Below, in pieces: positions 12,004 to 63,738 of a stretch of DNA of 64,000 bases (within the stretch, counting starts at the first letter, position 1; each line of letters starts with the position of its first letter). Source of the DNA: Acidobacteria bacterium 13_1_20CM_3_53_8 (GTDB lineage Bacteria > Acidobacteriota > Blastocatellia > Pyrinomonadales > Pyrinomonadaceae); the NCBI GenBank assembly GCA_001920415.1, contig MNJR01000139.1:74636-138635 (forward strand), read 5' to 3'. The translations under genes were made by a program, and so were the position numbers. The notes below the pieces were generated by a model. That model ran no database searches. It had not been told where the DNA came from and saw only the letters and a list, made by a program, of their open reading frames with translations.

Positions 12004-12220
12004 TTTATTCATTTGCTCATTTTTCATTTACTATTACGGTTTACGATTGAGTGCGACTTATGTCAGTACCGCCTGCGGTAGCGGGCGGGTCATTATCGCA
12101 GCCATCACCCGCCCAGCTTAAGCAGGCGGTACTGACTTGCCACGCTTTGTCAGTGGTCGCATGCAACTGTAAACCGTAATAATTGATTCAATGAAAAATG
12201 AATAAATGAGTAAATGAATA
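12004..12220. repeat. Nested family B inverted repeat, copy B1
   Basis: Three concentric layers. Outer: TTTATTCATTT...TTTTCATTTA (12004-12030) against 12191-12220. Middle: TTACGGTTTAC (12034-12044) against GTAAACCGTAAT (12169-12180). Core: TGTCAGTACCGCCTGCGGTA followed by GCGGGCGGGT (12061-12090) against 12107-12136. It fills the gap between two convergent genes. Confidence 0.88.
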
Positions 12221-12229
12221 ATGAACCAA

Positions 12230-20768: not shown

Positions 20769-20930
20769 TAGCAAAAGGTAAAAGTAAAAAGGCAAAGGAA
20801 AGGCAAAAGGTAAAAGTAAAAAGGCAAAAGTGTGGACACGCCTTGCAGGCGTGAATTAGAGATTAAAAATTAGAGATGAATGCTTCCTCCTAACTTTTGC
20901 CTTTTACCTTTTTACTTTTGCCTTTCTCCT
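20769..20930. repeat. Family A nested inverted repeat, copy A3
   Basis: Two tandem purine arms (20774-20838) face a pyrimidine arm (20890-20930). The interior holds GTGTGGACACGCC and TTGCAGGCGTGAATTA, the same CACGCC/GGCGTG mini-hairpin as A1 and A4 but in the opposite orientation. It encodes the last residues of the adjacent glycosyltransferase. Confidence 0.85.
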
Positions 20931-24762: not shown

Positions 24763-25704
24763 ATGAATAGCGGTGCGCCGCGAATCGTTTCGCTTCTACC
24801 TTCTGCGACCGAGATAGTCTGCGCGCTAGGGTTGGAAGACGCGCTAGTGGGCGTGACGCACGAATGCGATTTTCCAGCATCGGTCAAAGACAAACCGAAG
24901 CTGACGGCAAGCCGCATATCGCATGAGACTATGACGAGCGCGGAGATTGACCATGCCGTTCGTTCGCAGTTGGACGGTCACGGCTCGATTTACGAGTTGG
25001 ATGAAGAGCGTCTGCGCGCGCTTCGTCCTGACCTGATTCTGACCCAAGAGCTTTGCGATGTCTGCGCCGTCAGTTACAAGACGGTCGAAAAGGCCGCGCG
25101 CATGTTCGATGCTGGCGTGCGCGTGGTCTCGCTTGAGCCAAACACGATTCAGGACATTTTCGGGAACATACGAACCGTAGGCTCATTGACCCATAGAGAA
25201 GAGAGAGCGGAAGAAGTTCTCGCAGCATTGGCCGCGCGCGTGGACAGAGTCGCAGCAGCGACCGCAGACATCGAGCGGCGACCGCGCACGCTGATGTTGG
25301 AATGGCTTGAGCCTGCATTCGCGCCCGGTCACTGGGTTCCAGAGCAGGTAGCGATTGCGGGCGGCGATCATGCGTTCGGTCGCCCCGGAAAACCTTCCGT
25401 CACGACCACAGCCGAAGAGATTCGTCGGTACGCGCCGGAAGTAATAGTCCTGATTCCCTGCGGCTACTACAAGGAAGACACTTTAAGTCAATTGACGAGC
25501 GCGCATCTGCCAGAAGGATGGCACGACCTCCCGGCTGTGCTAGCCGGAGAAGTCTGGGCTGTTGACGCAACCTCATATTTTAGCCGCCCCGGCCCGCGAG
25601 TTGTTGACGGCATAGAAATTTTAGCGCGCATCCTTCACCCGGAAATTTTCGGTGAAGTGGAAGAACGCGATGCCGTGCGAGTGAGCAAAGAAAGTCAAAA
25701 GTAA
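24763..25704 (+). CDS. Cobalamin-binding BtuF-like periplasmic-binding-fold protein
   Basis: 313 residues. PRIVSLLPSATEIVCALGLEDALVGVTHECDFP at the N-terminus and LTQELCDVCAVSYKTV follow the BtuF/ferrichrome-binding-protein pattern. GHWVPEQVAIAGGDHAFGRPG matches the second lobe. There is no signal peptide, so it is probably cytoplasmic. Such leaderless BtuF-like proteins are common in Gram-negative bacteria, but their job is unclear. No cobalamin riboswitch is visible upstream. The terminal SKESQK and stop lie in repeat A4. Confidence 0.82.
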   Translation: MNSGAPRIVSLLPSATEIVCALGLEDALVGVTHECDFPASVKDKPKLTASRISHETMTSAEIDHAVRSQLDGHGSIYELDEERLRALRPDLILTQELCDVCAVSYKTVEKAARMFDAGVRVVSLEPNTIQDIFGNIRTVGSLTHREERAEEVLAALAARVDRVAAATADIERRPRTLMLEWLEPAFAPGHWVPEQVAIAGGDHAFGRPGKPSVTTTAEEIRRYAPEVIVLIPCGYYKEDTLSQLTSAHLPEGWHDLPAVLAGEVWAVDATSYFSRPGPRVVDGIEILARILHPEIFGEVEERDAVRVSKESQK

Positions 25705-25822
25705 AAAGGTAAAAGGCAAAAGGAAGGACAAAACCTTCGTCTACAATTTTTAATCTTTAATTCACGCCGCAGGCGTGTCCACACTTTTGCCTTTTTACTT
25801 TTACCTTTTGACTTTCCTTTAG
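25693..25822. repeat. Family A nested inverted repeat, copy A4
   Basis: A purine arm (25693-25723) faces a pyrimidine arm (25783-25820). The interior has AATTTTTAATCTTTAATT and the CACGCC-GCA-GGCGTG mini-hairpin. It supplies the stop codon of the BtuF-like gene. Confidence 0.85.
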
Positions 25823-25854: not shown

Positions 25855-27426
25855 ATGAGTTTCAATAAAATTTCGGTCGCAACTGCGCTCCTGTGCCTGT
25901 TAATCCTGTCCGTTGCGGCGCAGCAGCGAAGAGGGCGCGCGCCGCAACGAAGCGCGCCCCAACGCCCTGCGCAAACGACTGGCGCGCCCGCAGCGACTCC
26001 TTCTACGTCTGCGGCCTCTGCCGCGACGCCAGCTTCCCAGCCAGACCCGCAGACAGTCGTGCTCGCCCTGCTCAATAACCAGAAGATTACGCTCGCAGAC
26101 CTTGACGATGAAACGCGCGCTATGGTCTTGAGTCTGGATCAGAACATAGCCGGGGCGCGTCGCACGGAGCTTGATGATCAGATCAACAGGATTCTTTTCG
26201 AGACGGAAGCGAAGCGTCGGCACGTCACGGTCGAACAACTATTGAGCACGGAAGTGAACGACCGCGTCATTGGCCCGACCGAAGACGAAATTCGCGCGGC
26301 CTACGAAGAGAATCGCGCGCAGATAGGCAATTCGGATTATGCCTCTGTTCGCTCGTCTCTCATCAACTACATTCGCGCACAGCGCGCGCAAAAGTTGACC
26401 AGAGATTTTGCAGACCGTTTGAAGGCCGCGACGCCCGTCACGCTCGGCGCAGACCCAAACGCGCAGAACCTTGCGCCGGGCACTCAGCTAGCAACTGTGG
26501 CTGGACGAACAATCACCGCAGGTGAATTCAACGAGCGCGTTGCTCCTTACGTCTACGATATGCGCATAAAAGCTTTCGATGCGGAAAAGCGAGCGCTCGA
26601 CGTTTTAATCAACAACGCGCTTATCACCGCAGAGGCAGCGCGACGCAACGTTCCTTCAAACGAGATAATGCGCCAAGAGGTTACCAGCAAAATCACAGAG
26701 CCTACGGACGCCGACATACGAAAGTTTTATGAAGAGAACAGGGAGCGTCTTAACGGTGATCTGGAAACCTATCGCACGGACATCTCCGCTTTTCTACAGC
26801 AGCAGCAGCAGGAACGGTTGGAGCACGACCTTGCACAACACTTGCGCGCTGCTGCGGGACAGAACCTGCACATCATGTTGACGGAACCGGAAGCGCCCGT
26901 GCAGAACATAAGCACAGATGATGATCCTGCGCGCGGGGACGCAAGAGCAGCCGTCACAGTCGTAGAGTTCACAGACTTTCAGTGCCCTGCGTGCGGGCGC
27001 ACCTATCCGATTCTGGAAGAAGCCCTGAAATCTTACGGAATGCGCGTGCGCTTCGTCGTTCGAGATTTTCCGCTAGACCAGCACGAGAACGCGCGAAAGG
27101 CTGCGGAGGCTGCGGACGCTGCAAACGCGCAAGGGAAATTCTTCGAGTACATTGACGTTCTCTTCAAGCACCAGTCGGCGCTGGACGTTGCGTCGCTCAA
27201 AAAATATGCGGCGCAACTTGGGCTTGATAGAGCAAAATTCGACGCGGCTTTGGATAGTGGAACATACAGGGCTGAAGTCCAGCACGACGTTGACGACGGA
27301 ATACGCTACGCCATCTTCAGCACGCCAACAATCTTCGTCAACGGCCAGCGCATACACGACGCCTCGACCGTCGAGTCAATACGCGCCGCCATTGATAGAG
27401 CCTTCGCGCGCGCAAGAAGACAGTAA
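25855..27426 (+). CDS. Fusion of a SurA-like chaperone/PPIase N-domain with a DsbA-type thioredoxin domain
   Basis: 523 residues: a signal peptide (1-22), an Ala/Pro/Thr/Gln-rich linker (23-65), two tandem helical segments of the SurA N-domain type (about 68-195 and 212-340, each with an ALLNNQKITLADLD or LATVAGRTITAGEF start), and a DsbA/Thioredoxin_4 domain (about 362-520) with active site C377-P-A-C380 and the cis-Pro loop IFSTPTIFVNGQ. It probably binds unfolded envelope proteins and oxidises or isomerises their disulfides in one polypeptide. The start is supported by the signal peptide. The stop lies at the edge of repeat A5. Confidence 0.85.
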   Translation: MSFNKISVATALLCLLILSVAAQQRRGRAPQRSAPQRPAQTTGAPAATPSTSAASAATPASQPDPQTVVLALLNNQKITLADLDDETRAMVLSLDQNIAGARRTELDDQINRILFETEAKRRHVTVEQLLSTEVNDRVIGPTEDEIRAAYEENRAQIGNSDYASVRSSLINYIRAQRAQKLTRDFADRLKAATPVTLGADPNAQNLAPGTQLATVAGRTITAGEFNERVAPYVYDMRIKAFDAEKRALDVLINNALITAEAARRNVPSNEIMRQEVTSKITEPTDADIRKFYEENRERLNGDLETYRTDISAFLQQQQQERLEHDLAQHLRAAAGQNLHIMLTEPEAPVQNISTDDDPARGDARAAVTVVEFTDFQCPACGRTYPILEEALKSYGMRVRFVVRDFPLDQHENARKAAEAADAANAQGKFFEYIDVLFKHQSALDVASLKKYAAQLGLDRAKFDAALDSGTYRAEVQHDVDDGIRYAIFSTPTIFVNGQRIHDASTVESIRAAIDRAFARARRQ

Positions 27427-27560
27427 AAGGCAAAGGAAAGTAAAAAGGCAAAAGTAAAAAGGCAAAAGTCAGGGGAAGCCAATCTTCTTATTAAAAGATG
27501 GTTTCAGCCTTCCTTTTGCCTTTTACCTTTTTACTTTTGCCTTTTTTACTTCTGCCTTTT
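27424..27560. repeat. Family A inverted repeat, copy A5
   Basis: Purine arms (27424-27471) face pyrimidine arms (27517-27557). The spacer reads GGAAGCCAATCTTC...TTAAAAGATGG, a text shared with A7 and A9. Confidence 0.85.
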
Positions 27561-29244: not shown

Positions 29245-29263
29245 GATAAAGCGTGCGTAAAGT

Positions 29264-29502
29264 GAGCCGCGTTAGCGGCGCGATGAGTTTAGCCCGGCTT
29301 TTCAAAGCCGGGAGGTGCAAGGTCACAACGAGCGAGGCGTCGCGCGAGCGACGGTTGAATTATTCTTCTCAATCGTCGGTAGTTATTCTTCAATCGTCGG
29401 TAGTTATTCTTCAATCGTCGCTAGCGCGACGACTATAACATTTTACACTCTTTCCCGGCGTTGAAACGCCGGGCTAAAATCTAGCCGCCGCTAACGCGGC
29501 TC
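29264..29502. repeat. Family F concentric palindromes with a 21-bp tandem repeat at the centre
   Basis: Outer arms GAGCCGCGTTAGCGGCG (29264-29280) and its exact complement (29486-29502). The next layer is TTTAGCCCGGC... (29288-29314) against 29454-29479, each itself a hairpin around CCCGGC/GCCGGG. The inner layer is GCGTCGCGCGAGCGACGG against CGTCGCTAGCGCGACGAC. At the centre TCAATCGTCGGTAGTTATTCT runs 29369-29389 and 29390-29410, with a third partial copy. A shorter family C hairpin follows (29508-29575). No gene in 29245-29626. Confidence 0.85.
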
Positions 29503-29626
29503 ATTTTTCTTTTGCGCCTTTGCGTCTTTGCGTGAGAGAATTTGCGCGCTGTAGAAGCAAAGAAAAGGCGCAAGGTTGTTCAAGCCCCTCCGCGTCATCC
29601 TTTAAAATTTCCCGCAGAGGTTTAAG

Positions 29627-37900: not shown

Positions 37901-38316
37901 AAGGCGAGCAGGCTCGACGAAGCCGCGAGTTCACGCGCTGCATAGATGCTTACGAACGGGCTATAACGCTTTATCGCGGCGAGTTCATGCAAGGGAGCTA
38001 CGACGAATGGGCTGAAGAGCAGCGCTCCTATTATCGAGAAAAACATTTGCAGATGCTCGTAGCGCTCGCAGCAGTGGCGCAGAGCGCCGAAGAGTGGACG
38101 CGCTCGCTCGAACTCGCGCAGGAGATTTTAAGGGATGACCCGTTTCGCGAAGACATACACTGCATGATAATGCGCGCGCACGCAGCGCTCGGAAATCGCA
38201 TGGCCGTCAAAGAGCAGTACGAATCTCTGCGCCGCCTGCTCAAGAAGGAGTTGGGCGTTGAACCTGTAGCAGAGACGCAGAAGGTTTATCAGGAATTGAT
38301 TGAAAGTCAAAAGTAA
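34954..38316 (+). CDS. AfsR/SARP-type regulator: STAND ATPase, TPR array, winged helix and BTAD domain
   Basis: 1120 residues from ATG 34954 (AGAGGA upstream). The longer reading frame starts inside a repeat and is rejected. Order: a MalT-like N-terminus FLRTKLLPPRPAPELLPRPRL, Walker A A73-P-A-G-S-G-K-T80, Walker B IVVLDDYHHL, HPLFQSFLRRRF at the end of the ATPase, and TPR-like helical repeats over about 430-850. LTINMLGPVEIFRD...KRARDILCFIASRRHRRASKDSIIDTFW is an OmpR-type winged helix, and a C-terminal bacterial transcriptional activator domain ends KKELGVEPVAETQKVYQELI. A large ATP-dependent transcription activator; the regulon is unknown, though the following subtilase is a candidate. The final residues SQK and stop lie in repeat A6. 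Confidence 0.9.
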   Translation: MPTRPRRPNTIESRENEHAGNSTVSLRSHAAQPTFFLRTKLLPPRPAPELLPRPRLTERLQANVAHPVTLVTAPAGSGKTTLVADFVRKHAQQFVWYQLDHTDVDPSVFLGYLAHGIGQAVAGFGDVTFSYLQQAAGELAQQPERAVDVMLNEVLETVEQQLIVVLDDYHHLGTETPVHAVVDRLLAYLPDVLHVIIVSRDLPPLALSRLRSQSSLAIVDRAELLFTDEETQELFRKVFDLELTPEQLQEYRERTHGWITALQLVRQVAHRQAFELGGTAAPDLIEILRQSERDIFDYFAEEVFADEPEEVQQLLPRLSLLERLETETCAALFPDSDCARQLPALVRRNVFITVASDGRGEEYRLHPLFQSFLRRRFRTETGMAGVAAEHARFADYFLSREQWEQAMRNLLGAEDFERAASVIATRGQDWMSSGAILSLAKFAASLPAPALEAHPRALAYQAEVARLQGDYATAQALFRRAAILLHEKGDGEGEAEALHSLATIARRRDQCEEAFSYLDRAVELTYENSSVRIKCGNTRGLCLMATGELAAAEREFRAALQTAEEQGDEHYARLIAHNLGLPAAIRGDFGEALRWTRRMLREDEQAAPVPQEATGHLNVARFLLYRGDFEACETHLDRALELSQLFSLTNLRGEIFETYGTLYRERGDAARATEFYERSARAYDDAGLDLARTELWEEQAQLYLQTGNLVTARSLLDRLATARAGMNDEMKRHTAGLARGRVMLAQGEHEAASAEINPTLQYFHAHGLHYYEAQASLALAVCDLAEGREGEMLEHMRRALDLAARYDYEYWLKRELARGALALTSNTDAAALLPADLREPLTVQPVPQIQAAQAHAVATVAAQPITDLTINMLGPVEIFRDPARPLAADAWVTKRARDILCFIASRRHRRASKDSIIDTFWGETDFDAIEKNFHPTISHIRKALNSNQALKQNFLLYRDGDYQLNPEFSYRIDTEEFDRLVLEGEQARRSREFTRCIDAYERAITLYRGEFMQGSYDEWAEEQRSYYREKHLQMLVALAAVAQSAEEWTRSLELAQEILRDDPFREDIHCMIMRAHAALGNRMAVKEQYESLRRLLKKELGVEPVAETQKVYQELIESQK

Positions 38317-38437
38317 AAAGGCAAAGGAAAGGCAAAAGGTAAAAGTAAAAAGGCAAAAGGGATTAGGACGAAACCATTTTAATTAAAGATGGTTTCAGCC
38401 GCACTTTTGCCTTTTACCTTTTTACTTTTGACTTTTC
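38306..38437. repeat. Family A inverted repeat, copy A6
   Basis: Tandem purine arms (38306-38359) face a pyrimidine arm (38403-38437). The inner layer is AAACCATTTTAATT/AAAGATGGTTTCAGCC. 38438-38667 is the leader of the subtilase gene; TATAAT (38549-38554) is a possible -10 box with no clear -35. Confidence 0.82.
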
Positions 38438-38667: not shown

Positions 38668-41616
38668 ATGAAAAATGTTATGCCCAGAGATTTGAGGCGA
38701 CTCCTCGCTCTCATGCTCGTAGTCTTGCTCTGCGCCGCGCCCATCAGCGCAGGCATCACTGTCACCGGCGCTGATGGAATAACCGTTACGGGCGCAGACG
38801 GCATTACTGTCACAGGCGCTGACGGCATCAACTACATTCACACCAACGGCATCACCGTCACAGGCGCAGACGGCATACTCTCTTTCTCACCAAACGGCGT
38901 TACAGGCATAACTCCCAGTGGCATTACGGTCACAGGGGCAGACGGCGGCACGTACGCTGGCGCGAACAACATCAGCGCCACCAACCCGGACGGCATCACT
39001 GTGACCGGGGCGGACGGCATCACCGTTACAGGCGCTGATGGAATTACAGTAACGGGCGCAGACGGCACACGCTACAGCGCAGACTCTGTTGACTTCAGAA
39101 CGCCGAACGGAATCACCGTTACGGGCGCTGATGGCATTACTGTTACGGGCGCAGACGGCATACAGCATGCTGGTTCAGATGGCATCACAGTCACTGGCGC
39201 TGATGGCGCAGGGTTGACCAAAGTTAACGGCATCACTGTAACGGGCGCAGACGGCGTCACTGTGACGGGCGCAGATGGACGCACCTTTAACATATCGCCG
39301 AGCGGCATAGTGTTGGCGGGCGTTGACCGTGTGATGATGTCTAAGCCTGTGGGCATAGTTGTGACGGGCGCTGACTCTATCATCGCTACGGGCGTGGACG
39401 CGCTCAGCGCACTTGCAAACGAAGTGGCGGGCGCAACCGGACTAAGAAGTATTGACCCGGAACTGGCCGTGCTACTTAACACGGACAGCCTGACGGACGA
39501 TAGCAACATCAACGCGGTGGTCGTCTATCACCAGATGCCCACAGACAGCGACCTGCTAGACCTTCAGCGCATAGGCATACTTGGCGGCACGCGCTATCAC
39601 GCGCTTCCCATGATCGCAGTGACGGGCACGCGCGACCAGATAACGCAAATCTCCAAGCTGGCAGCAGTGCGCTCTATCTACGGCAACCGCACGCTGCAAT
39701 CGAACATTGATCCTATAATTCGCGCCGTCACAGGCGAAGACCGCGCGACCCGCGATGCAGACCTGACGCGCAAGAACGGCGGGCTTCCTGTTTCTGGACA
39801 CAACGTCACCGTCGCTGTGCTGGACACAGGCATTGATGGAACACACAACGACTTTTCTGGCCGCATGATTCAGAATGTAAAGCTCGCAGACACGCAGAGC
39901 GTAAGCGCCGCTTTCGTCGCAGGCGTTATAGCAGGAGATGGCACGCGCTCTGGAGGCAAGTACAAGGGCGTGGCTCAGGGCGCGCGTATTCTTGGCCTGA
40001 GCGCTGGCGATCTTACTTTGAGCTTCGTGCTTTCCGGTTTCGATTATCTTCTTGCGAACGGCGCTAATTACAATCCGCGCGTAGTCAATTGCAGCTTTTC
40101 GGCCAATACGGTCTTCGACTTCAACGATCCCGTGAACGTCGCCACAAAGATTCTGACGGATCGCGGCATCAACGTTGTCTTTTCTGCTGGCAACGCAGGC
40201 CCCGGACTACGTTCTTTGAATCCTTACGCGGTCGCGCCCTGGGTCATCAGCGTGGGCGCAACCGACGAGCGACAGCGAATAGCAAGCTTCTCATCGCGCG
40301 GCGATTTCGGAAGCGCACTGTTTCATCCGACTCTGGTAGCGCCGGGCGTAAACCTTGTGAGCCTTCGCGCATCAACGATTGCGAGCGTGACGGGTGTGAC
40401 CGGCATAGCGCCCGGCGTAGATACGCAGAAGCTTTCGGCAAGTGAACTTCCCTATTACACGACTGCGAGCGGGACAAGCTTCACAGCGCCGCAGGTCGCA
40501 GGCACTATAGCGCTCATGCTTGAAGCGAACCCTGCGTTAAAGCCCGCTCAAATTCGGGACATACTTCAACGCACGGCGACTCCGCTTCTTCCTTATTACG
40601 AGCATGAGGTCGGAGCCGGAATGCTCAACACTCACGCTGCCGTTTTAGAAGCGGCGTTCGCGCAGCGTCACATGGGCTTCTGGCGCGCGGCGCTTGATCG
40701 CGGCCAGTTCTCATTCGTCAATGATGATCCGCAGGAGTTTTCAGGCACTGTGACGAATCAGAGCAACAACTTCAGCATCCCGTTGCAAGTTCCAGAAAAC
40801 ACCGTGGTCGCTTCCGTGCAAATCGCCTGGGGGCCGGATAATTCAAACAACGACCTTGACCTTTACTTTTATGATCCAAGCGGCGTGGATCAATCGGACG
40901 CGACCGCGTTGAACCAGCCGGGCTTGACCGGAAGACGCGAGCGCGCAGTCGTGACTATGCCGCAAGCTGGCGCGTGGACGGCGCGCGCTACGAACAAACT
41001 CGGCGCGGCTGGCTCGCCGCAATCTTTCACGGGCGTGTTTGAGTTGACGCGCGTAGCTTACGCGCAGCTTCTTGACATAAATGATCTGAGCGCGACGCAG
41101 CGCGGCGAGATTTATCAGGCACTCAGAACTTACACAATGTTTCCGTTCGGCTCTTACTTTAGACCGAACAACGTGGTCTCGCGGCTAGACCTCGCTGCGG
41201 CACTGGTGACGGGCGCGCGCGTGCCGCAATACCTACCGGCGCAATCGCGTTTCACAGACGTGCGCGACGCAACGACCGACGCATTTGTAGAGAGCGTGCA
41301 ATCTTCGCCAAGCGGCGCGCTCTTTTACGACGCAACGCCGGGCAGCACTTTCCGACCGGACGATCAGGTGACTAGGCTAGTTGCGGCTGTCGCGCTCGTT
41401 CGCGCGCTTGGGTTGCAGCCCGATGCGACCAGCACTTTGCCGCCAACATTGACGGACGCCGCAACGATTCCAACAAGCTGGCGCGGCTTCGTAGCCCTTG
41501 CTTTGCAGAACGGATTACTCAACGCCGACAACAACACCTTCCGCCCGCAGGCATCGCTTACGCGAGCGGAACTCGCGCACGCGCTTGCGATGATTACAAA
41601 GATTCAAAGCAGGTAA
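38668..41616 (+). CDS. Exported subtilase (S8) with octapeptide-repeat N-terminus and SLH-like C-terminus; catalytic His missing
   Basis: 982 residues. Signal peptide 1-28. Residues 29-245 are about 27 octads with consensus GITVTGAD. The S8 domain is about 376-660, with D386 (VAVLDTGIDGTHND), oxyanion N508 (FSAGNAG) and S604 (SGTSFTAPQ). Family members have GHGTxVAG before IAGDG; here the text is VKLADTQSVSAAFVAGVIAGDG, so the HGT motif and the loop before it (probably 15-30 residues) are absent while the frame is kept. A pre-peptidase C-like beta domain (about 690-830) and three SLH-like motifs (FRPNNVVSRLDLAAAL, FRPDDQVTRLVAAVAL, FRPQASLTRAELAHAL) follow. Probably attached to the cell envelope. 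Without His it should not be a normal serine protease. Confidence 0.87.
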   Translation: MKNVMPRDLRRLLALMLVVLLCAAPISAGITVTGADGITVTGADGITVTGADGINYIHTNGITVTGADGILSFSPNGVTGITPSGITVTGADGGTYAGANNISATNPDGITVTGADGITVTGADGITVTGADGTRYSADSVDFRTPNGITVTGADGITVTGADGIQHAGSDGITVTGADGAGLTKVNGITVTGADGVTVTGADGRTFNISPSGIVLAGVDRVMMSKPVGIVVTGADSIIATGVDALSALANEVAGATGLRSIDPELAVLLNTDSLTDDSNINAVVVYHQMPTDSDLLDLQRIGILGGTRYHALPMIAVTGTRDQITQISKLAAVRSIYGNRTLQSNIDPIIRAVTGEDRATRDADLTRKNGGLPVSGHNVTVAVLDTGIDGTHNDFSGRMIQNVKLADTQSVSAAFVAGVIAGDGTRSGGKYKGVAQGARILGLSAGDLTLSFVLSGFDYLLANGANYNPRVVNCSFSANTVFDFNDPVNVATKILTDRGINVVFSAGNAGPGLRSLNPYAVAPWVISVGATDERQRIASFSSRGDFGSALFHPTLVAPGVNLVSLRASTIASVTGVTGIAPGVDTQKLSASELPYYTTASGTSFTAPQVAGTIALMLEANPALKPAQIRDILQRTATPLLPYYEHEVGAGMLNTHAAVLEAAFAQRHMGFWRAALDRGQFSFVNDDPQEFSGTVTNQSNNFSIPLQVPENTVVASVQIAWGPDNSNNDLDLYFYDPSGVDQSDATALNQPGLTGRRERAVVTMPQAGAWTARATNKLGAAGSPQSFTGVFELTRVAYAQLLDINDLSATQRGEIYQALRTYTMFPFGSYFRPNNVVSRLDLAAALVTGARVPQYLPAQSRFTDVRDATTDAFVESVQSSPSGALFYDATPGSTFRPDDQVTRLVAAVALVRALGLQPDATSTLPPTLTDAATIPTSWRGFVALALQNGLLNADNNTFRPQASLTRAELAHALAMITKIQSR
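38752..39402 (+). repeat. Octapeptide-encoding repeat GITVTGAD within the subtilase gene
   Basis: About 27 units of 24 bp. Twelve encode exactly ITVTGADG and one VTVTGADG; they alternate with variable octads such as GINYIHTN, GILSFSPN and GIQHAGSD. The exact peptide copies use many different codons (for example ggcatcactgtcaccggcgc versus ggaataaccgttacgggcgc). Regular Gly spacing with alternating small and beta-branched residues suggests a beta-solenoid. Confidence 0.9.
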
Positions 41617-41682: not shown

Positions 41683-41698
41683 AAGCAATTGCAGCAAA

Positions 41699-42093
41699 GA
41701 TGAAAGACGAGCTATTCAAGATGAAAGACTGAAACCGCATCGCTCATCTTGGTTAACGTGAGTTAGATATCAGCTCTAAGGAGAATAAGAGAAAATAAAT
41801 TATCCACTATAGCGGTTCTCACTTGAATGCGACTCATGTCAGTACCGCCTGCGGTAGCGGGCGGGTATCGGTGCGGCTACGACCCGCCCGCTACCGCAGG
41901 CGGTACTGACATGCATGCCTTGATCAGAGTGGTCGCACCCAAGTGAGAACCGCTATAAATCACACGAAGCGACACTAAATGAGCAATTCTATTCGTGTGG
42001 TTTAGTGTGGTGCGCGTGGATAGGTTTCTGCTCTTTTCTCTCTTATGTCGAATTCACGTTAACCATTCTTGTTGAATAGCTAGTCTTTCATCC
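41699..42093. repeat. Five-layer concentric inverted repeat with family B core, copy B2
   Basis: Layers from outside in: GATGAAAGACGAGCTATTCA (41699-41718) with 42069-42093; TGGTTAACGTGAGTT (41750-41764) with AATTCACGTTAACCA (42050-42064); AAGGAGAATAAGAGAAAA (41778-41795) with 42034-42045; TATAGCGGTTCTCACTT (41808-41824) with 41941-41957, perfect over 17 bp; and the family B core CATGTCAGTACCGCCTGCGG... (41835-41866) with 41882-41913, perfect over 32 bp around a 15-nt loop. A further CACACGAA/TTCGTGTG hairpin lies off-axis at 41961-42000. No gene between 41617 and 42244. Confidence 0.9.
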
Positions 42094-42244
42094 TTCATCC
42101 TTGCTTTTCGTTGCACACTTGTAGATAAGCGCCGCGCCTAGGCTTGTATGTCATGCACAGGGTGCGAGGTCTGTGTGTCGAGTATGTGGGAGATGGCGTC
42201 CCGTTTGAGACAGTCGTGAAATAGAATTCGCGCTCTTGTTAGTT

Positions 42245-42583
42245 TCAGCGACGCTTTTTAGCCGAGCCTTTACGCGATGACTTCTTCGCGCCGGACTTGC
42301 TCGATGACTTCTTTGCGCTGCCGCTCTTCTTCGCTGACTGTCTGCGTACGCGGCGACCACGACGACTGGCGCTCTCTATTTGACCGCTTGCGGTCAGCAA
42401 CTCGTAGCTGCGGCGCACGACGTTGCGCGCTACACCAGCCGCTTCTGCCAGCGTGCGTTCGCTTGGCAATAGCTCGCCTGCGGCCAAGATTCCGGTCTGT
42501 ATCATCCTGCCGAGTTGGTCTGTTATCTGTCGCGTTAAAGATTCTGAGCCTCCGCGTTTGACGCGGACTTTGACTGAGGCCAT
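42245..42583 (-). CDS. GntR-type winged-helix protein with a histone-H1-like Lys/Ser-rich tail
   Basis: 112 residues from ATG 42583, preceded by TAAGGAG. Residues about 8-72 form a GntR DNA-binding domain (SLTRQITDQLGRMIQTGILAAGELLPSERTLAEAAGVARNVVRRSYELL). There is no ligand-binding domain. The last 40 residues are almost only Arg, Lys, Ser, Gly and Ala (RRQSAKKSGSAKKSSSKSGA), as in histone H1 C-tails and bacterial AlgP/Hc1-like proteins. It is likely a DNA-binding, chromatin-like protein rather than a metabolite-responsive repressor. Confidence 0.8.
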   Translation of the reverse strand: MASVKVRVKRGGSESLTRQITDQLGRMIQTGILAAGELLPSERTLAEAAGVARNVVRRSYELLTASGQIESASRRGRRVRRQSAKKSGSAKKSSSKSGAKKSSRKGSAKKRR

Positions 42584-42740
42584 CGTTTTTCTCCTTATGT
42601 AGGGGCTTCGCGGTGATACTTCGGAGAACGACTCTGACTGTTCGAGTGGCGGCAATTCTATGCGCGAGTCATGCGCCCGGTCAACCAATATTTTTGTTCA
42701 CTCGACTCAAGCGGCACGCCGAGTTGCAACTGATCTAGAG

Positions 42741-42905
42741 TAAAAAGGCAAAAGTGAGGAAGGCAAAAGATAAAAGTAAAAAGGTAAAAGTAAAAAGGCA
42801 AAAGTGAGGCGGAGAACCACTTCTTAATTAAAAGATTGGCTTCCCCTAACTTTTGCCTTTTACCTTTTACCTTTTTACTTTCTCTTGCCTTTTTACTTTT
42901 GCCTT
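42741..42905. repeat. Family A inverted repeat, copy A7
   Basis: Several purine arms (42741-42806) face pyrimidine arms (42846-42905), with GAGAACCACTTC...AAAGATTGGCTTCCCC in the middle. It abuts the 3' end of the minus-strand sugar dehydrogenase gene. Confidence 0.85.
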
Positions 42906-44158: not shown

Positions 44159-44255
44159 TGTCAGTACCGCCTGCGGTAGCGGGCGGGTCGTTTGAATTGT
44201 TACTAGCGTATTAGCTCAAAGTATTACCCGCCCGCTACCGCAGGCGGTACTGACA
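44159..44255. repeat. Family B inverted repeat, copy B3, in a divergent gap
   Basis: TGTCAGTACCGCCTGCGGTA plus GCGGGCGGGT (44159-44188) faces its exact complement (44226-44255), with a 37-nt centre that has its own weak symmetry. The remaining 44256-44680 holds no gene I can support. Promoters for the divergent dehydrogenase and ABC genes must be nearby. Confidence 0.9.
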
Positions 44256-52871: not shown

Positions 52872-53003
52872 GGAAGAAAGAAGGCAAAAGGTAAAAGTAA
52901 AAAGGCAAAAGTTAGGGGAAGCCAATCTTTTATTAAAAGTAGTTTGCGGCCTTCCTTTTGCCTTTTACCTTTTGACTTTTACCTTCTTTCTTCCCTCATC
53001 CTT
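52872..53003. repeat. Family A inverted repeat, copy A9
   Basis: The outer arm GAAGGAAGAAAGAAGGCAAA and following purines (52872-52911) face pyrimidine arms (52955-53003) that end TTCTTTCTTCCCTC. The centre is GGAAGCCAATC/TTAAAAGTAG. It starts right at the CocE stop codon. Confidence 0.83.
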
Positions 53004-61891: not shown

Positions 61892-62130
61892 AGCCATCGA
61901 AGACGGCGACAGAATAAAGCCCGCGAAAGCGGGCGGCAGCATAAAGCCCAGCCCGTGAGGGCTGGGAAAAGTAGCAGAAATTATTACGAAGCCCGCGTGA
62001 GCGGGCGACAGCCCTTTGATTATTATGGGCTGTCGCCATCTTCGATGGCTCGCTCTTCATTCTTTAACTTCTAACCCAGCGCTAACGCACTGGGCTTTAT
62101 GCTGTTGCCCTCTATCGAGGGCTTTGGATT
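61892..62130. repeat. Family F composite of nested small palindromes
   Basis: Outer arms AGCCATCGAAGACGGCGACA (61892-61912) and the complement at 62030-62050 match at 20 of 21 positions. Inside are independent hairpins CCCGCGAAAGCGGG, CCCAGCCCGTGAGGGCTGGG and CCCGCGTGAGCGGG, and outside CCCAGCGCTAACGCACTGGG and GCCCTCTATCGAGGGC. The rest of 61846-62411 holds no gene I can support. Confidence 0.85.
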
Positions 62131-63653: not shown

Positions 63654-63658
63654 AGAAA

Positions 63659-63738
63659 CAGTTTTCAGTTTTTAGTTTTCAGTTTTCAGTAAAAGCTCGC
63701 TTGCTCTTCTTCTGAAAACTAAAAACTGAAAACTGTTC
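63659..63738. repeat. Family E inverted repeat, copy E2
   Basis: CAGTTTTCAGTTTTTAGTTT... (63659-63690) faces TGAAAACTAAAAACTGAAAA... (63711-63738), with AAAGCTCGCTTGCTCTTC between. It lies just before the start of the next gene. Confidence 0.88.

Follow-up and report, generated by a model that had tools for sequence, protein, structure and literature searches.

Nested mobile palindromes, very likely stacked by ordinary transposition, in an acidobacterial intergenic region

How did several different inverted repeats come to lie inside one another in a single bacterial intergenic region? The locus in question is found at 41.70-42.10 kb of the window, which is the whole 64-kb stretch of DNA analysed (C24:74636-138635 of a draft genome that comprises 155 contigs and 6.1 Mb, with 95.9% completeness and 3.9% contamination). 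It is flanked by the end of a 982-aa ORF (38668-41616) on one side and by an ORF on the opposite strand (42245-42688) on the other. The first-pass annotation described at least five inverted repeats sharing one centre here, and proposed that new palindromes are added at hairpin tips or that whole stem-loops grow from the centre. The nested repeats are real, and every arm named was found. An Rfam scan of the window gave zero matches, which excludes a known structured RNA there. The stack very likely consists of non-autonomous mobile palindromes that ordinary transposition nested in one another from the outside to the inside, a reading for which the order of gain was compared between copies within one genome.

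From the outside inward, the layers are the arms of family M, the ends of element O, the ends of element I, and element B. The outermost arms, identified by an inverted-repeat search, are located at 41696-41725 (AAAGATGAAAGACKAGCTATTCAA) and 42066-42095. These M arms (GATGAAAGAC) are 87% complementary and belong to a smaller set, with similar short arms recurring at a few other genomic sites. Element O (41750-42065, + strand) is a MITE with the TIR TGGTTAACGTGAGTT that is interrupted by I, and was recognized from its copies without I and from target duplications; its arms (TGGTTAACGTGA; 41750-41773 and 42042-42065) are 83% complementary. The hairpin core of O, designated C (CCACTAAATCACACGAA / TTCGTGTGGTTTAGTG; 41804-42007, + strand), has its left arm split by I after CCAC, at a TA. 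Element I (41808-41957, + strand) is a 150-bp IS630-like MITE with the TIR TATAGCGGTTCTCACTT and a TA target duplication, and its arms (TATAGCGGTTCTCACTTG; 41808-41833 and 41932-41957) are 92% complementary. The core of I is element B (41835-41913, + strand), a RAYT-linked, REPIN-like hairpin in its short-loop form, with 32-bp arms (41835-41866 and 41882-41913) that are 100% complementary. At 44159-44255, the window has a free, long-loop copy of B for comparison.

The nesting of these layers is clear, but the single centre that had been claimed for them holds only approximately: the centres fall at 41874 for B, 41882.5 for I, 41907.5 for O, and ~41896 for the outermost arms. Relative to the maximum allowed by free loop room, the offsets at 41.7 kb are 0.89, 0.42, and 0.73, with B inside I displaced by 8.5 of a possible 9.5, near the edge of its room. 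The window holds 15 nested inverted-repeat pairs compared with 0.64 expected from 41 repeats scattered at random, with the limit that these few, non-independent pairs all stem from 6 places. Over all nested pairs in the 64-kb window, the mean ratio of offset to available room was 0.37, which does not differ significantly from uniform placement (KS p = 0.08); the co-centring beyond chance that the first-pass annotation saw was therefore not found. Precise co-centring occurs only at 11.06 kb (ratio 0.05) and 29.26 kb (ratio 0.07). Co-centring is mostly a product of nesting alone, with the layers appearing concentric because every guest sits between the arms of its host.

Elements O and I are both mobile in type. 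O, which measures ~166 bp without I and has the TIR (T)AACGTGAGTT, occurs mostly without I, with more than 30 such copies elsewhere in the genome. An exact 6-bp target duplication is present in 7 of 29 alignable O copies, compared with 0.3 expected, and this duplication, the TIRs, and the dispersed copies identify O as a MITE. A clear target duplication was not seen when the sequence at the boundaries of the window copy of O was inspected. For I, 38 full copies were examined, sister subfamilies included. They are 133-150 bp long with 26-bp TIRs, too short for transposase coding, and every one starts and ends with TA, whereas empty C targets contain one TA (CCAC-TA-AAYC). TA is the insertion site of IS630 elements (PMC2170065), and the duplication of TA on insertion, the TIRs, the length below 300 bp, and the non-coding sequence mark I as an IS630-type MITE. 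Two IS630-type transposase genes are present in the 155-contig draft genome; neither carries the TIRs of I, and both were rejected as its source because of this difference. An autonomous IS630 element with I ends was not found in the same draft assembly. The I TIR is widespread in cyanobacterial genomes, likewise on small elements. These loci are mostly MITE-like end pairs of ~95-320 bp, and a transposase between the ends was not found at them. Cyanobacterial MITE-like elements with I ends (within L048-L130, a mostly cyanobacterial set) contain an unrelated hairpin core, CCTCACCCCCAACCCCTCTCC, in parallel to B within I.

Element B has a different background. The genome contains 97 exact B arm pairs with spacers that vary, so that B shows the inverted pair of conserved arms, the variable spacer, and the high copy number of a REPIN. 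It also has a RAYT gene with B on both sides: B copies at 1876-1960 and 2504-2590 enclose a gene (C23:1980-2489) whose 169-aa HUH product has the motif NHAHV. This protein matches Y1_Tnp (E = 1.2e-5), and its best NCBIfam match, under the cut-off of that family, is REP_Tyr_transpos (REP-associated tyrosine transposase). The B arms start GTCAGTACC and the GTAG/GTGG head next to the hairpin is missing, and we therefore refer to B as REPIN-like and not as a GTAG-class REP. Long-loop copies of B (23-48 nt) are without a MITE flank on either side in 23 of 28 cases, and 30 of 37 short-loop copies are flanked by MITE ends on both sides. Three MITE families that are unrelated to one another contain B: I, GGAGTTACGCAGTTGA, and ATACCAAGTTGCAAT. 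Among the matches listed for family-level relatives, B is covered and I and O are not, and B, I, and O therefore have different histories. With a RAYT-linked hairpin captured by three DNA transposon families, the B sequence is probably mobilized by two transposition systems that are unrelated to each other.

The relationship between O and I is the most informative part of the stack. Of the 38 full I copies, 13 are inserted at one and the same TA of C in O-like elements, CCAC-TA-AAYCACAC, in both orientations and with guests from several I subfamilies; two further copies, L039 and L047, passed a loose score for a C host by chance and were left out of the 13. Between 0.01 and 0.29 insertions at this target would be expected, an excess of 45- to 1200-fold (P = 1e-18 to 1e-37), with the range reflecting both a varied number of allowed targets and the counting of either all TAs or 15% of them as the assumed intergenic share. 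The genome also contains 66 exact empty copies of the extended target. If the whole multi-layer stack were instead one composite that spreads as a unit, hosts and guests should have diverged equally. The constant place of B in I, where it is carried as a passenger, fits such a composite. However, for occupied O-like copies, the ten hosts of the main subfamily have a mean identity of 66% (58-78%), compared with 97% (92-100%) for their guests, so that these are independent repeated insertions, and approximately two thirds of the I copies lie outside O while more than 30 copies of O lack I. The difference in divergence refutes a composite of O and I, leaving a unit only for I and B, where the position of B is constant and I carries it along as it spreads; as an account of the whole stack, a composite is extremely improbable. 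The empty O copies and the 13 recurrent insertions bear out the view that the layers are separate repeat elements, with the inner one inserted into an older outer one. Sites with an outer layer but no inner one, which had been suggested as the case to look for, are thus abundant among copies in one genome.

What directs I to this target? Outside C, I prefers AC-TA, which was found at 11 of 25 insertions compared with a background of 9.5% (P = 7e-6). The shorter motif CACTAAA occurs ~670 times in the genome, as extrapolated from 7 occurrences in the window, and only one insertion (L039) uses it outside C, so a longer sequence or a hairpin context must be required. In addition, L012 and L019 have I at the same TA of a second motif, AAAAC-TA-AAAAC, which is like the TTTTCAGTTTTTAG repeats at 63657-63737.

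The hairpin context bears on the proposal that new palindromes enter a cruciform or a single-stranded hairpin loop, which would place each layer exactly in the centre. This growth at hairpin tips is consistent with the repeats at 11.06 and 29.26 kb, which are co-centred within 2 nt, with one I copy (L045) in the loop of C, and with some B copies of GGAGTTACGCAGTTGA MITEs that have another hairpin in their loop. The target TA of C, however, lies in the stem near its base, ~25 nt from the centre of the host, and 13 of 14 clear insertions of I into C are at this stem TA, the exception being L045. When the 13 C targets were folded with DNA parameters, 8 were paired and 2 fell in a hairpin loop. 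The 25 targets outside C were indistinguishable from control TAs, with 7/25 compared with 82/296 in hairpin loops and equal folding energy (p = 0.50). The position of B near the edge of its room inside I also argues against tip insertion, and the repeats at 29.26 kb fit the order of hairpins at the ends of a RAYT gene. The comparison with control TAs largely refutes hairpin-tip insertion for I, and neither insertion at tips nor growth from the centre, as the first-pass annotation had it, is supported by these data. We consider tip growth highly unlikely as the origin of the stack, and infer that sequence, and not DNA shape, sets the target of I.

Stepwise transposition would account for the locus as follows. 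An O-family MITE would have settled in the intergenic region, and I would then have jumped into the preferred TA of its core C (CCAC-TA-AAYCACAC). By that time I would already have contained B, a RAYT-linked REPIN-like element having entered an ancestor of I earlier. Insertion between the arms of a host would spare the ends of the host, would be harmless in intergenic DNA, and for I would be favoured by the target. Alternatively, template switching at a replication fork could extend a hairpin outward, with one flank copied as the mirror of the other, which would surround the inner arms with outer ones. With a 26-bp inverted repeat as its tight border and no clear target duplication, the window copy of O could be read in this way, and the inverted B loops and hybrid ends described below indicate strand exchange in palindrome arms. 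Against this, M, O, I, and B all have arms that belong to dispersed repeats and not to unique local sequence, and the empty hosts point to insertion, not extension. Outward extension is therefore an unlikely source of the layers, if a somewhat better candidate than growth at tips.

Stepwise transposition is not the only process acting on these elements. In L210, an end of I on the left is joined at B to a ATACCAAGTTGCAAT end on the right, giving a hybrid MITE, and among 24 main-subfamily I copies, 5 have the loop of B in the opposite orientation with respect to the MITE ends. Both observations are explained by exchange within shared B arms. Perfect B arms in common would allow recombination to invert the loop and to swap flanks between different MITEs, and the hybrids appear to be made by homologous recombination or template switching. 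One may speculate further that REPIN arms act as standard connectors, with recombination swapping loops and ends to assemble new mobile palindromes, including MITEs with two different ends; we put this forward tentatively and think it has a minority chance of being right. If true, it would, with strongly targeted insertion, amount to a modular, self-stacking palindrome system. Separately, the GGAGTTACGCAGTTGA MITEs L300, L302, L313, and L312 have an extra hairpin of the AAAAGTAAAAAGG or GATTTCGGATTTTAG kind in the B loop.

The same concentric order had been reported at other sites in the window. At 12.0-12.2 kb there is a sister copy of I (12032-12181, + strand) that has the TIR TATTACGGTTTAC and a B core. 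It lies inside an A+T-rich inverted repeat (12005-12221), forming the same kind of stack as at 41.7 kb; its ends are of the same kind as those of L042 and L045. The sites at 11.06 and 29.26 kb have different origins. At 11.06-11.19 kb, the centres of two arms differ by 0.5 nt, and the arms constitute a single interrupted hairpin. At 29.26-29.50 kb (29263-29503), the hairpins resemble the ends of the C57 RAYT gene in sequence and in mirrored order (GAGCCGCG.TAGCGGCG, TTTAGCCCGGC.., CGTCGCG..), and because of this shared order the site is likely a gene-less derivative of the C57 RAYT element. The site at 55.75-55.88 kb consists of one perfect 37-bp repeat with a 58-nt loop.

Three more RAYT-like genes, on C57 (L250), C142 (L251), and C130 (L252), are flanked by mirrored sets of 2-3 hairpins. 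The same hairpin order is found in gene-less derivatives at 29.3 kb and at L167, the latter inside an M palindrome. An inverted repeat at 61937-62104 (CAGCATAAAGCCCAG) matches the flank of the C130 RAYT gene and is possibly another such derivative. The window contains hairpins of the AAAAGGCAAAAGTAAAAAGG kind in at least eight places: 1-180, 1385-1488, 20773-20926, 25690-25816, 27423-27546, 38303-38435, 42739-42900, and 52872-52994.

The locus provides a layer-by-layer origin for long nested palindromes in bacterial intergenic DNA, with empty hosts as the proof, and the unusual strength of the target that an IS630-like MITE has in another MITE makes the target choice of this transposon family testable. 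The individual mechanisms are already known, and the earlier statement that no named family behaves in this manner was wrong. REP dimers within longer palindromes have been described in A. variabilis, H. neapolitanus, and T. roseum, although the authors went no further (PMC3733652), IS elements insert at the symmetry axis of REPs (PMC1525189), and BOX, RUP, and SPRITE insert into one another (PMC3049150). As in the REPIN/RAYT system, or REPtron (PMC3116915, PMC2817692), B has inverted arms, a variable spacer, many intergenic copies, and a flanked Y1/HUH gene. It differs in that its arms start GTCAGTACC in place of a GTAG/GTGG head, complete dimers flank the RAYT gene, and the short-loop form is the core of several unrelated MITEs. 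The REP dimers of PMC3733652 likewise lie within longer palindromic sequences, but here one host is a MITE with a TA target, several unrelated hosts exist, and that host itself has a host for which there are empty copies. Element I resembles Nezha of cyanobacteria, RUP of Streptococcus pneumoniae, and other IS630-like MITEs in being small and non-coding with TIRs (PMC3049150, PMC2229807). RUP, an IS630-type MITE, shares its TA target and also tends to enter other mobile elements, favouring regions with other IS elements (PMC2229807). Unlike Nezha and RUP, I has a strong single hot spot within another MITE, used in both orientations. Palindromic repeats also serve as insertion hot spots for the IS elements at REP axes (PMC1525189) and for YPAL elements near dyad symmetry (PMC2229807), but I targets a TA within the hairpin stem of a MITE and not the axis, and the guest is itself a palindromic MITE. 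The targeted stacking and swapping of parts seen here is thus an unusually clear case, and what is new is the strength and precision of a target within another MITE, the proof from empty hosts, and a RAYT-linked hairpin captured and exchanged by several transposon families.
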